Shown piece by piece: positions 99 to 39,295 of a stretch of 39,295 nt of DNA; the stretch's first letter is position 1, and each line of letters starts with the position of its first letter. The position numbers and the translations under genes are program-made. Origin of the DNA: a virus; IMG/VR virus record IMGVR_UViG_3300030107_006739, positions 1 through 39,295 of that record; one strand, given 5' to 3'. The notes below the pieces were generated by a model. The model did not search any database. It was not told where the DNA came from and saw nothing but the letters and a program-made list of their open reading frames with translations.

Positions 99-258
99 GC
101 GGCTTAACCCTCAGTTTTACCCCTTGTTTTTCTTTGTCTTTTCCCTTCTTTTTTTATTCTCTTTTTCCACATTGCATATATTTGCAGAATAGACTAGTCT
201 CCCCGATACCGTGCGTTTGTGCGGCGAAAAAAACTGAATGCTTTAGGAGGCATGCAAA
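51..258 (+). promoter_or_regulatory. Leader of the early operon
   Basis: This non-coding stretch lies between the terminator and the first early gene. It holds a long pyrimidine tract (about 121-170), a perfect 10-bp palindrome AGACTAGTCT at 191-200, and the box AATGCTTTAGGAGGCA at 237-252 that supplies the Shine-Dalgarno sequence for the gene at 259. TTGCAT at 172 and TAGACT at 190 resemble promoter elements but are spaced only 12 bases apart, so no sigma-70 promoter can be placed with confidence. The promoter for 259-4033 should nevertheless lie here. Confidence 0.4.
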
Positions 259-8427: not shown

Positions 8428-8709
8428 ATGAAAGAAATCGAAAAGAAATGGTATCAAAGCAAAAAATTTCTCGCCTTTCTGATTTTAGTAATAATGACGA
8501 CAAGCCTGATTGCGATGGGTATCCTTTGGCGGACAACACCTGACGTTCTTCAGAGTCTTGTGACGATCCTGGGCGGAACTACGGGCGCAGCGGGCGCCGG
8601 GCTTATAGGCACGCAAGGCTACGTGGATGCAAAGGTGCGGCCTGCATTGCTGGAGACAGAGATCGTAGAAAAAGAAGAAGTGCTCGACGATGATGGTGCG
8701 GAGAAATAG
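8428..8709 (+). CDS. Small membrane protein, holin candidate
   Basis: This 93-residue protein has a short basic N-terminus (MKEIEKKWYQSKK), a transmembrane segment at about residues 14-33, a second hydrophobic Gly/Ala-rich segment at about 40-62, and an acidic tail. Two membrane spans, charged ends and a position heading a run of small membrane proteins beside an endolysin suit a class II-type holin, which would permeabilise the inner membrane to time lysis. There is no family-specific signature, so the call rests on topology and context. Confidence 0.6.
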   Translation: MKEIEKKWYQSKKFLAFLILVIMTTSLIAMGILWRTTPDVLQSLVTILGGTTGAAGAGLIGTQGYVDAKVRPALLETEIVEKEEVLDDDGAEK

Positions 8710-9749: not shown

Positions 9750-10008
9750 AGCGCAAATGGAAGCCGTTGAGGAGCGCGTTTCTGAGCTAAGAAAATCTCT
9801 GTACGGACAGGACGGTAACGAGGGAATTGTCCGCAAGATCTCAACATGCGAGGGTTCTTTGGTTGCTATTCAAAAAGAAATCGCAGAACTCAAAGAGATG
9901 GCGGACAGCTTCAAAACGACTATTTTCAAGATTATTGTTCTTGTTATTGGTTCCGGAGCTTTGTCGGGCGGTGCAGCGGCAAAACTGCTAGGAGCTATTG
10001 CGCCCTGA
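9625..10008 (+). CDS. Coiled-coil membrane protein, XhlA-like
   Basis: This 127-residue protein has a long N-terminal coiled-coil (about residues 1-95, with heptads in QMEAVEERVSELRKSL) and one C-terminal transmembrane segment (about 100-124). That architecture matches XhlA-type hemolysin/holin-associated proteins, which sit in the membrane and aid lysis. ATG 9625 is preferred over upstream in-frame starts as it begins a typical soluble N-terminus. Its final 14 bases overlap the oppositely oriented endolysin gene, with no room for a terminator between them. Confidence 0.6.
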   Translation: MTDRETSVSIGKLSAQMETLTATMTTTVQQFAAQSQGLVRIEAQMEAVEERVSELRKSLYGQDGNEGIVRKISTCEGSLVAIQKEIAELKEMADSFKTTIFKIIVLVIGSGALSGGAAAKLLGAIAP

Positions 10009-10417
10009 TCTCAAAGTGCGGTCCATCAAGGAAGGTTTGATCATCAAGATCATTGTCTCCGTCCCAATCTAAGCCGCACCTAAGCTCCCAGACATCTTCT
10101 ATTCGACCGTCGTTTACCATCTGAATAAAGGTGGCTTTTACGAAACCCTGGAAGTGATAAAACCTTTTTGTGTTCGTCCAGTCGGACGATTTGAACGGGT
10201 AAGGAATTACGTCTACAGCGTGGCTAGGTGATTTTGCATGAAGGCTTTTCAGTGTTTTGCTAAATCCCTGCTCTACCAATTCTTTCTGGCGCTCAGGCGT
10301 GCGATAGCCCTCGATAACAGAACAATCGTAGTGACGGACAACCTCTTCAAACAACTTGATTAGCACAGGGTGACAGCTATCTAGTTTGCGTCGGCTGCTT
10401 TTTCCAAAACTAGGCAT
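9995..10417 (-). CDS. Endolysin, M15-family peptidase
   Basis: This 140-residue protein resembles phage M15 (VanY/D-Ala-D-Ala carboxypeptidase-like) endolysins that cleave peptide cross-links in peptidoglycan. Family features are GYRTPERQKEL at about 37-47, a metal-binding pair in the region SLHAKSPSHAVDV (His60 and Asp69) and a final metal ligand in GPHFEI (His134). Length is typical for a single-domain enzyme without a wall-binding module or signal peptide, so it would need a holin to reach the wall. It is the last gene of the virion operon and its start overlaps the upstream stop (TAATG). Confidence 0.82.
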   Translation of the reverse strand: MPSFGKSSRRKLDSCHPVLIKLFEEVVRHYDCSVIEGYRTPERQKELVEQGFSKTLKSLHAKSPSHAVDVIPYPFKSSDWTNTKRFYHFQGFVKATFIQMVNDGRIEDVWELRCGLDWDGDNDLDDQTFLDGPHFEIRAQ

Positions 10418-36235: not shown

Positions 36236-36383
36236 ATCTGCACCATAACACACACTCTTGTAAGACTGGCAACCGTCTGCTAGGGTTGCTGCGGGTCGAT
36301 TGTGCCTCCTAAAGCATTGCACCCTTCGCTATCCCCTTCGTTTTCGTTCATTCATTTTTCTAAGGGGATAGCTCTTTGCTTTT
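36236..36383 (-). promoter_or_regulatory. Leader upstream of the LysM-like virion gene
   Basis: Read on the minus strand it has a perfect 11-base inverted repeat (36328-36338 with 36362-36372, AAGGGGATAGC arms), then the box AATGCTTTAGGAGGCA (36303-36318), then a small hairpin (36269-36274 with 36284-36289, GCAACC arms). A 23-codon open frame (36280-36351) runs through the box and stops before ATG 36235. The AGGAGG has no ATG, GTG or TTG at a useful distance, so it may serve in regulation rather than as a start site. Confidence 0.4.
36328..36372. repeat. Perfect 11-bp inverted repeat
   Basis: GCTATCCCCTT at 36328-36338 faces AAGGGGATAGC at 36362-36372, with a 23-base spacer. Only the plus-strand side is followed by T-rich sequence, where no gene needs terminating, so a protein-binding or leader-RNA role is more likely. 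The AGGGGAT core recurs in reverse at 37148, 37163 and 37173. Confidence 0.65.
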
Positions 36384-36988: not shown

Positions 36989-37016
36989 GTGGCAGGATAA
37001 GCGCTTGTTATCACTC

Positions 37017-37074
37017 GCAATCTGCCTTGCATAGCGTCAATCGTCTGCAATTTAGGTTGCAATCTGCCTTGCAT
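37017..37074. repeat. Two copies of GCAATCTGCCTTGCAT
   Basis: The 16-base sequence occurs at 37017-37032 and again at 37059-37074. The 42-base start-to-start distance is four helical turns, so both copies face the same side of the helix. That is typical of protein-binding sites or iterons. A shorter relative (GTCTGCAA) lies between them. Confidence 0.7.
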
Positions 37075-37147
37075 CGCACGCAATAAATTAACCGGGCTTA
37101 CCCATCCACACCAACTAACTAACCCCAAGTCCCTAGAATCCCTTCTA

Positions 37148-37180
37148 ATCCCCTGAACCTTCATCCCCTGCCATCCCCTG
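37148..37180. repeat. ATCCCCTG short repeats
   Basis: Three exact ATCCCCTG units begin at 37148, 37163 and 37173, and a degenerate unit at 37138. Their core is the same as in the 11-bp inverted repeat at 36328-36372, which ties the two leader regions together. Confidence 0.55.
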
Positions 37181-37318
37181 AAAACTTGCCAGTAATCCAC
37201 TAGAACACCTTTCAAGCGCTTCTGATAACCGCCTAGTTTGCTTGGTTCTTTTCTTGCTTGTCCTGGTGTTAGACTTTTCCAGTTTGCAAAAAGAAGGAAA
37301 TAGGCTTATCTTCCCCCT

Positions 37319-37570
37319 ATGAATGAACCAAAACAAAACAAACCCACAATGATCAGCAGCAATAAGCAAGATCTGTCGACTTTGACAGACAAGCAGAAAA
37401 CAAAGATCCAGCAGCTCATGAAAGGATTCAACGTCAAGATCGAAGAGTGCACAGCAATCCTTAATCCGTTCTATCTTGGCACGGGTTGGGTAGAGCTTCA
37501 GATCCCCAGACCTAACGCTCGATTCGACTATGTAATAGGTATTGATCCTGATGGCATCGGATCGTCTTGA
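37319..37570 (+). CDS. Small right-arm protein, unknown
   Basis: This 83-residue protein starts at ATG 37319, with AAGGAAA about 20 bases upstream, so initiation is weak or unusual. The N-terminal third is polar and basic, and the C-terminal part (WVELQIPRP, YVIGIDPDG) is beta-like. I do not recognise the family. It precedes a strong terminator, so it may be expressed as a one-gene message. The region is unusually rich in GATC. Confidence 0.55.
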   Translation: MNEPKQNKPTMISSNKQDLSTLTDKQKTKIQQLMKGFNVKIEECTAILNPFYLGTGWVELQIPRPNARFDYVIGIDPDGIGSS

Positions 37571-37614
37571 GTCTTGATCACTCTTAAAGCCTCCGATCTG
37601 GCAATCGCTAGATC
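37351..37614. other. Dense GATC cluster
   Basis: By eye there are ten GATC sites in 264 bases (37351, 37370, 37405, 37438, 37501, 37544, 37560, 37576, 37595, 37611), against about one expected. They span the small gene and the following terminator. The wider arm to 39240 also looks enriched, whereas 259-2600 has only a few. Such density is known from Dam-regulated origins. Confidence 0.6.
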
Positions 37615-37624
37615 GGGGGCTTTT
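37586..37624 (+). terminator. Rho-independent terminator
   Basis: Bases 37586-37599 pair with 37610-37623 (AAAGCCTCCGATCT with AGATCGGGGGCTTT), 14 pairs with one G-U, around the 10-base loop GGCAATCGCT; TTTT follows. It terminates the message of the gene at 37319. Its 5' arm AGCCTCC is also complementary to the GGAGGCT of the next gene's ribosome-binding site (37653-37660). Confidence 0.8.
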
Positions 37625-37666
37625 GGGGTTAATCAAGGCCCAATTCAGCTTTAGGAGGCTAAAACG

Positions 37667-38035
37667 ATGAAATTAGAAACTTTAACAGCTGCAGCGATGC
37701 AAACGGATGACAAAGACCATCAGCGAGACCTTTTAGATCTCGTTACCTTACTTGATCAGATCCAAAATCGGATCTTCTGTCCGATTAGGGCATGTAAAAA
37801 GGTGATGGACACTAAGAGATCCGTTCTTGTCATCCCTAAAGCTTGTGGCCTCTCGATGAATAAAGAGTCCAAGGGCTTAGGCTTCTGTTCTGGTCGTTGT
37901 GCGTCTGCAGCGATGGAGAGACTCCGATCAGACTTTATTGACGATGTGTGCACTTTTCGGACTGTTACCGCAGGAAACTTTAAGCAGACTTTCCCTCATA
38001 AACGCCTAAGGCCTGAAGAGGGCGATCAATCGTGA
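37667..38035 (+). CDS. Cys-containing small protein, unknown
   Basis: This 122-residue protein starts at ATG 37667, preceded by the leader box GCTTTAGGAGGCTAA, an excellent site. It has five cysteines: one in FCPIRACKK near residue 38-43 (two residues), one near 60 and two in GFCSGRCAS near 73-77. Spacing suggests a metal site. Helical segments occupy the start. I do not recognise the family. Its stop overlaps the next small frame (GTGA). Confidence 0.62.
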   Translation: MKLETLTAAAMQTDDKDHQRDLLDLVTLLDQIQNRIFCPIRACKKVMDTKRSVLVIPKACGLSMNKESKGLGFCSGRCASAAMERLRSDFIDDVCTFRTVTAGNFKQTFPHKRLRPEEGDQS

Positions 38036-38112
38036 CCTGGGACGAATTCCTCATCACTCTTTTCTTGGCGCTAACCCTCCTTAGGGGATGCGCAATCGCT
38101 TTAGGAGGCTAA
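38032..38112 (+). CDS. 26-residue hydrophobic leader protein (small ORF)
   Basis: A GTG overlapping the previous stop opens a 26-codon frame whose product has a single hydrophobic stretch (FLITLFLALTLL) after an acidic start and ends CAIALGG. The last codons lie over the ribosome-binding site of the next gene, and the stop TAA is five bases before that gene's start. Coupled translation through the SD-covering hairpin is likely. It may act mainly as a leader, or be a real micro membrane protein. The frame, overlap and hydrophobicity are seen; expression is inferred. Confidence 0.4.
   Translation: MTWDEFLITLFLALTLLRGCAIALGG
38076..38108 (+). promoter_or_regulatory. SD-sequestering hairpin
   Basis: CCTCCT at 38076-38081 is exactly complementary to AGGAGG at 38103-38108, the ribosome-binding site of the gene at 38118. 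The loop is 21 bases. If formed in the RNA it would hide the site; a ribosome translating the small frame at 38032-38112 would melt it. Confidence 0.5.
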
Positions 38113-38117
38113 TCAAA

Positions 38118-38927
38118 TTGAAGACAACAATAAGACAACAAAGAGCAAACGGGCTTTTACTCTGGCAGGGTAGGAGCTTGTTCGATGGTGAAGATATAGC
38201 CCTAATCGGGCTCAAAAAAACAGACAACAGGAAGATCGGCCAATGTTCGCAGATGTTGACCTTAAGAGCGGACATCGAACCCGCGATTGCCCGAAGAACC
38301 GGGGCAGATTTTAGCATCTGTGGGGATTGCCCCATAAAGACCACCGTTGAGAATAAGCAGATGTGTTACGTTGACGGTAGATTTCTGCAGACCGTTTATA
38401 AAGAATTGATAGCAGGGAAATATCCCCGAGCGACGATCCGACAGTTTGACGCCTTGGTTCCTCGGTATATGCGGTGGAGGCTAGGCGCATACGGCAACCC
38501 TTCAGGGGTTCCCTGGTTTGAGGTATGGCGTGAACTGTTATCACTTGGGCGCAAGTGGTTAAGCTACGACCATGAATGGTTACGGTGTACACCGTATCAC
38601 TCTCAAGTAAGTATGGCATCGGTAGAAACCATCGAGGATGCGATCCACGCTGCCGACCTAGGTTGGCGCTCGTTTCTTGTGGTCCCTACCGGTGAAGGCG
38701 AATTGACGGTTAATCGGCTGAAGAAAAAAGGCCTACCGGCAACCCTGTGCCCGTATAACCCCAAAGACATCAACACTATGACTTGTGATAGGTGCGGTCT
38801 GTGCGACGGGAAGAAGAACGACAGAGATAACCGACCACATGTGGTCCATGAGGTCACAGGTCATCAGGTGACGTTGAAAAGCCGATCTAGGCATTTAAGG
38901 ATCCTACAAGGTGACTACCATGCTTAA
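38118..38927 (+). CDS. Cysteine-rich GP88-like protein
   Basis: This 269-residue protein has two cysteine clusters: CGDCPIK and CYV near residue 70-85, and CPYN followed by CDRCGLCDG near 216-235. A Trp-rich middle with WLSYDHEWLR lies between. The C-x2-C-P...CY and later CP...C-x2-C-x2-C pattern resembles phage gene-88-type proteins of unknown function with possible metal or iron-sulfur sites. TTG 38118 is chosen because AGGAGG sits nine bases before it; ATG 38088 has no site. The function is unknown. Confidence 0.62.
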   Translation: MKTTIRQQRANGLLLWQGRSLFDGEDIALIGLKKTDNRKIGQCSQMLTLRADIEPAIARRTGADFSICGDCPIKTTVENKQMCYVDGRFLQTVYKELIAGKYPRATIRQFDALVPRYMRWRLGAYGNPSGVPWFEVWRELLSLGRKWLSYDHEWLRCTPYHSQVSMASVETIEDAIHAADLGWRSFLVVPTGEGELTVNRLKKKGLPATLCPYNPKDINTMTCDRCGLCDGKKNDRDNRPHVVHEVTGHQVTLKSRSRHLRILQGDYHA

Positions 38928-39195
38928 GTGCTCATGTTGCGGAAATTACTTTCATAAATGGAAAGGATACCAGGATCAAGATCAGGGGTCTTACTTTGGT
39001 ATTTGCAAGAAGTGTCAGGATTGGATCGAAGGTGATCAAAACGCCAAGCTTGACGAATTATGTGCTCAAATCTGGGAAGGGCTGAGCGATAGCAACCGCG
39101 CCAAGTTCGATGCAATGTCGATTGATGATCGTCGAGCAGTGGCGACCGGCCTAATATATGAGGGCTACGTATCTTTTGAGATTCAAAGATCTTAA
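38920..39195 (+). CDS. Small zinc-ribbon-like protein
   Basis: This 91-residue protein starts at ATG 38920 with AAGGTG six bases before it; its start overlaps the previous gene. A CSCC motif at about residues 4-7 and CKKC at about 31-34 are a four-cysteine zinc site. The rest is acidic and helical. It is followed immediately by the terminator shared with the left end. A small nucleic-acid-binding or regulatory role is possible but not shown. Confidence 0.65.
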   Translation: MLKCSCCGNYFHKWKGYQDQDQGSYFGICKKCQDWIEGDQNAKLDELCAQIWEGLSDSNRAKFDAMSIDDRRAVATGLIYEGYVSFEIQRS

Positions 39196-39295
39196 CCTCG
39201 AATAAACCACCGCCCGGTCTGGCTAACGCTGGATCGGGCTTTTTTGTGCCTACTTTTTGAGCGGTTAACCCTTGGTTTACGGGCTTATTTATATC
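39196..39295. repeat. Terminal direct repeat, right copy
   Basis: This stretch matches bases 1-98 exactly and directly follows the stop codon of the last gene (39195). On a circular map the early operon at 259 therefore lies about 260 bases downstream of the 39195 stop, and the terminator is shared by both contig ends. The single mismatch near the end could be population variation or the low-quality edge of the assembly. Confidence 0.85.

Follow-up and report, generated by a model that had tools for sequence, protein, structure and literature searches.

Phage and bacterial microproteins (<50 aa) that have gone unannotated are very short, carry one hydrophobic segment, lie between larger genes of an operon and are easily missed. 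In leader-peptide attenuators, a short ORF precedes a gene whose SD is complementary to upstream sequence. Translationally coupled pairs, for which PMC12548453 describes RNA unfolding and ribosome scanning models, consist of adjacent genes with a short gap, the second ribosome-binding site (RBS) lying in or just after the first gene and being partly paired. In the MS2 coat/lysis arrangement, covered in the same paper, the RBS of a phage gene stays open as long as its neighbour is translated; of the two genes, it is the small lysis gene that lies downstream.

The locus analysed here shows likeness to each of these. It lies near the right end of a virus record of 39,295 bases (the window), where a frame of 26 codons precedes a gene of the phrog_2554 family. 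The encoded peptide is very short, has a single hydrophobic segment and sits between larger genes, as do the unannotated microproteins; it differs from the known ones by an [LI]R[GA]C segment that forms its own signature, with no convincing family match. The short ORF ahead of a gene and the SD complement upstream resemble a leader-peptide attenuator; however, there was no conserved alternative structure, and what the frame has preserved is a hydrophobic peptide, not a run of regulatory codons. The spacing of the two genes is that of a coupled pair, although masking of the RBS did not exceed what the codon content alone produces, and coupling is here a prediction. An MS2-like opening of the neighbour's RBS is likewise a proposal, and in the window the small gene is the upstream partner. 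It is likely that the frame at 38032-38112 is a genuine gene whose 26-aa product is a single-pass membrane microprotein, that it shares an operon with the phrog_2554 gene, and that the SD complement is incidental.

Organisation of the gene cluster

The cluster is on the + strand, and the features that were assigned within it are as follows.

37319-37570, + strand: ORF
37667-38035, + strand: upstream gene, 122 aa; its TGA stop overlaps the small ORF start as GTGA
38017-38022, + strand: AGAGGG, which by eye is a candidate ribosome-binding site for the small ORF
38032-38112, + strand: small ORF, 26 aa, GTG start, TAA stop (38110-38112); predicted single-pass membrane microprotein
38076-38081, + strand: CCTCCT, in Thr-Leu-Leu codons; upstream arm of the proposed hairpin
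38098-38112, + strand: 15-mer GCTTTAGGAGGCTAA over the SD; exact copy of 37648-37662
38103-38108, + strand: AGGAGG, SD of the downstream gene, within the final codons of the small ORF
38118-38927, + strand: downstream phrog_2554-family gene of 269 aa, starting with TTG (PHROGs match)
38911-39195, + strand: ORF
39212-39239: terminator-like hairpin after ORF 38911-39195 (terminator scan)

The small frame was found just as it had been described in the original prediction: the GTG at 38032 overlaps the preceding TGA, the frame spans the hairpin, and its TAA lies 5 nt before the TTG at 38118. The candidate site AGAGGG is 9 nt ahead of the GTG and is contained within the end of ORF 37667-38035. The window start codons are weak, with GTG for the small ORF and TTG for the next gene. 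For the upstream 122-aa protein, searches of phages and, with one sequence, of viral_contigs gave no relatives; with an alignment query, the sole relative in viral_contigs was the record of L004, one of the related loci described below. The Rfam search of 37000-39295 gave five matches with E values of up to 1, all far under the gathering scores, and none within 37650-39170.

The label 'GP88-like' that had been given to the downstream gene was not confirmed, as the protein matched phrog_2554 instead (E 3.1e-41), a family without assigned function. No Pfam family reached the cut-off, the sub-threshold matches being CR6_interact (E 0.0038) and DUF7227 (E 0.053). Six named phage homologues gave DUF7227, again sub-threshold, in 3/6 and nothing in 3/6, and no mention of DUF7227 was found in the literature searched. 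By tblastn, the downstream protein matched 147 phage records. A single-sequence search of viral_contigs and a search of genome_contigs both gave zero matches, an alignment query of viral_contigs returned only two records, both already known, and a DNA search for relatives in phages returned none. The predicted structure was poor (mean pLDDT of 41.6 from three sequences), and the PDB sequence search gave a single match, with E 0.33.

The 15-mer over the SD is part of a repeated cassette. Its 12-mer core, GCTTTAGGAGGC, is also present at 240-254 (+) and 36301-36315 (-), in near copies of the 15-mer. With up to 3 mismatches allowed, the cassette was found at 6 places versus 1.35 expected, a number that 0/100 shuffles reached. 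Of 54 loci, L001 alone has the exact 15-mer, and this locus is the window itself.

Other elements were observed nearby. A nested hairpin of very high stability is found ahead of ORF 37667, at 37571-37639 (+), and has an inner stem of 17 bp that ends in CUUUU; in a 121-nt fold it gave z = -6.0 with 0/200 shuffles as stable, making it far stronger than the SD hairpin. Its position between two genes is like that of a terminator or an attenuator; the terminator scan did not list it. A second frame of 26 codons (37574-37654, +, TTG start) spans this strong hairpin and ends in the first cassette copy before ORF 37667. In the related loci L007 and L026/L021 (the latter being record IMGVR_UViG_3300030118_005756), runs of CCCTAACCC, a U-tailed hairpin and a GGAGACC ribosome-binding site precede the small ORF, and the same arrangement was seen before another L007 gene (both by eye). 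The motif CTAACCC occurs 5 times in L026 versus 0.6 expected; in the window it is not clearly enriched (5 versus 2.85, with 14/100 shuffles reaching 5).

Conservation and properties of the peptide

Terminase and portal searches yielded 13 distinct related records. All were examined, nine over the whole record and the others at the locus level. Three of the 13 reach the site, and all three carry the small frame at the same position, giving 4/4 with the window. In the remaining related records neither the upstream nor the downstream gene was found, as expected of fragments. The peptide of the window is MTWDEFLITLFLALTLLRGCAIALGG (26 aa). The corresponding small ORFs encode MNCEELAVTGFLVLLLLRACAIAGGF in L007 (minus strand, 1520-1600), MNCEELAVLGFLALLLLRACAIAGGF in L021 (668-748) and MDGFSLQDIALLTALVIFPLIRGCMVALQ in L004 (minus strand, 44-133). 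The last of these, at 29 aa, is more diverged and follows a homologue of the 122-aa ORF; since the L004 contig stops 9 codons into the next gene, that gene is not identifiable.

The L007 and L021 peptides are of equal length to that of the window and are each identical to it at 14/26 positions without gaps, and in each case 0/200,000 residue shuffles scored as well. For L004, 2/20,000 shuffles were as good when compared with the window peptide; when compared with the L021 peptide alone, 1,597/20,000 were as good, which is not significant. A tblastn search of 16 loci with the window peptide matched L007 with E 4e-4 and L004 with E 0.026. Between the small ORFs of L007 and L021 there are 10 base changes, corresponding to 7 synonymous and 2 non-synonymous codons; for this one pair, as few amino-acid changes were obtained by random placement in 0.135% of 20,000 trials (P 0.00135). 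Conservation was assessed on four sequences, of which two (L007 and L021) are mutually close. A MAFFT alignment of the four leaders misplaced L004 and was left out of the counts.

Both of the other forward frames hold at least one stop in all four small-ORF loci, and the frame of the downstream gene relative to the small ORF is 2 in the window, 1 in L007 and 2 in L021. These offsets indicate that an overlapping N-terminal extension does not account for the conservation and, together with the stops, that it is the peptide itself that is conserved and not the shadow of an overlapping gene. The gene upstream of the small ORF in L007 and L021 differs from that in the window, so the small ORF holds its place before the phrog_2554 gene though its upstream neighbour swaps. 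The downstream protein of L007 is 43% identical to that of the window.

All four peptides share one plan, in which an acidic N-terminal stretch is followed by a hydrophobic core and, after the core, by [LI]R[GA]C. By count, each contains two acidic residues and one Arg; by eye, the acidic residues lie before the core and the Arg lies within [LI]R[GA]C in the four peptides. The maximum Kyte-Doolittle value over 18 residues was 2.2-2.5 in 4/4 peptides, so that the hydrophobic segment is of sufficient length for a membrane span, and only 4 of the 338 window ORFs of 20-45 aa, the small ORF itself counted, reach its value. The original suggestion that a small membrane protein is plausible was therefore supported, since in 4/4 records having the site the frame still encodes a protein whose core is of the membrane type.

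Two other types of product were considered. Lipoproteins have a positively charged n-region and uncharged residues ahead of the Cys. In 4/4 peptides (by eye) there is no Lys or Arg before the core, acidic residues are present there, and an Arg is found two residues before the Cys, so a lipoprotein was rejected. The hydrophobic ORF 8428-8709 and the peptidase-like ORF 9995-10417 (minus strand), elsewhere in the window, look like lysis genes, and the small peptide therefore need not be a holin.

The window peptide had no matches in Pfam or NCBIfam, and against PHROGs only a weak match to phrog_11843 (E 0.076), a family without assigned function; the L007, L021 and L004 peptides had no PHROGs match. 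With tblastn, whose low-complexity filter may hide such peptides, the window peptide matched nothing among phage or plasmid records, and the L021 peptide nothing among phage records. When viral_contigs was scanned with DNA patterns for an [LI]R[GA]C segment and an SD after it, 7 and 24 stretches were obtained, among which a short ORF of the right type was seen by eye only in already known records. A stricter pattern gave none in genome_contigs. Six named phages, of the 147 with a phrog_2554 gene (Klebsiella records were left out), were inspected by eye over the 320 nt before that gene, and none had a small ORF of this kind. On this basis the pair of small ORF and phrog_2554 gene seems to be restricted to the present phage group, and the peptide looks like a lineage-specific addition beside a widespread gene, bearing in mind that little weight can be given to a search that fails with a hydrophobic query of 26 aa.

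Pairing of the SD with the small frame

The exact complementarity of CCTCCT to AGGAGG was verified, and the predicted fold pairs the two. The 129-nt fold was unremarkable (z = -0.99; 33/200 shuffles at least as stable). The original prediction had taken this pairing to mask the SD, in a layout of translational coupling or attenuation. Were the frame a leader whose translation opens a dedicated attenuator hairpin over the SD, the peptide would matter little. Such a function would fit the perfect 6-bp complement, which arose in only 2.4% of 20,000 synonymous recodings and is mildly unusual; a 6-bp stem with G-U allowed arose in 72%. It would also fit the state of the SD, which was mostly paired in all four loci (unpaired 0.15-0.27); whichever of six flank choices was used, the SDs of the window (0.60-0.92) and of L004 (0.62-0.86) paired with the small frame.

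The strength of the masking was compared with 400 synonymous recodings of the small ORF per record, using phage codon usage. Opening the window SD cost 3.5 kcal/mol versus a mean of 4.0 for the recodings, and 62% of recodings masked as strongly or more; the corresponding values were 80% for L007, 77% for L021 and, in the best case, 24% for L004. Masking of the RBS is therefore not beyond that given by coding content. From 41 hand-listed candidates, 26 starts had a recognisable SD, two of them being alternative starts of one gene; their opening costs ranged from 0.2 to 9.8 kcal/mol, and the window SD, at 3.7 kcal/mol, was 20th from the most open and hence the seventh most closed, which is not extreme for this genome.

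Pairing between the RBS and the leader was also not conserved across the four loci. Under the same six flank choices, the L007 SD hardly paired with the frame (0.03-0.09) and paired downstream instead (0.73-0.87), while pairing of the L021 SD with the frame was variable (0.06-0.41). The SD partners in the window and L004 sit at different distances from the start, and an exact SD complement within the frame is absent from L007, L021 and L004. The frame was kept in 3/3 relatives; CCTCCT, however, is gone from L007 and L021, where the frame and the downstream gene are intact, which is the very outcome that the original prediction had named as counting against the hairpin. As the peptide is what has been conserved, a dedicated attenuator is unlikely. 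Of the layout first proposed, the short stop-to-start gaps stand, whereas the dedicated masking of the SD found no support.

The SD hairpin is most simply explained as a by-product of pyrimidine-rich leucine codons placed before a purine-rich, repeated SD cassette. It may have a role specific to the lineage of the window and L004, because these two both pair the SD with the frame and are the closer pair by terminase identity (86%, versus 79% for the L007 and L021 records).

Probable coupling to the phrog_2554 gene and a possible role at the membrane

The stop-to-start gaps are +5 nt in the window, +1 nt in L007, +2 nt in L021 and +16 nt in L004, short distances of the kind seen in coupled pairs. 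According to the review PMC12548453, coupling is most efficient at short stop-to-start distances, and distance increases under 20 nt can lower it, which bears on the gap of +16 nt in L004. The small gene and the phrog_2554 gene would be translated in one operon, with the SD of the latter inside or just past the 3' end of the small ORF. A ribosome ending the small gene would then halt 1-16 nt before the next start, and termination-reinitiation or local unfolding would couple the two genes. Coupling by the terminating ribosome is likely, and we infer that the small ORF is translated.

If termination-reinitiation were the sole function, the frame would serve to deliver ribosomes and any peptide would do. 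The gaps and the efficiency of short distances agree with this, but amino acids have been retained while synonymous sites changed. Moreover, L007 and L021 have ATG starts and GGAG-type SDs (by eye) for both genes, so reinitiation is not obviously needed there, and coupling as the only role is doubtful. Least credible by far is a true start of the downstream gene at ATG 38088 with the small frame as an accidental overlap: the ORF is open from there (279 aa), but AGGGG directly abuts this ATG, too close for an SD (by eye), the L007 homologue has no possible start upstream of its ATG 1518, which aligns within a few residues of TTG 38118 (both sequences having been supplied from those starts), and the small peptide is conserved.

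The reading favoured here is a membrane microprotein that is expressed together with the phrog_2554 gene. In it, the acidic N-terminal part would lead into about 12-18 hydrophobic residues, after which come [LI]R[GA]C and a short tail. Under the positive-inside rule, the orientation of membrane segments follows their charge, and the peptide would accordingly be placed in the inner membrane as N-out/C-in. An accessory function at the host membrane is a guess. It is a long shot that the peptide, by entering the membrane while still ribosome-bound, keeps the polycistronic mRNA, and with it phrog_2554 synthesis, at the host membrane, that the small ORF founds a microprotein family, and that [LI]R[GA]C tunes the coupling via the nascent chain, not the RNA hairpin; the conserved [LI]R[GA]C would in that case be made as the ribosome reaches the SD.

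An upstream SD complement can come from leucine-rich coding, and a synonymous-recoding control is therefore needed before riboregulation is called. For the phage group, which has been seen only as viral contigs, the analysis adds a conserved, probable membrane microprotein with no convincing match in the family libraries tried.
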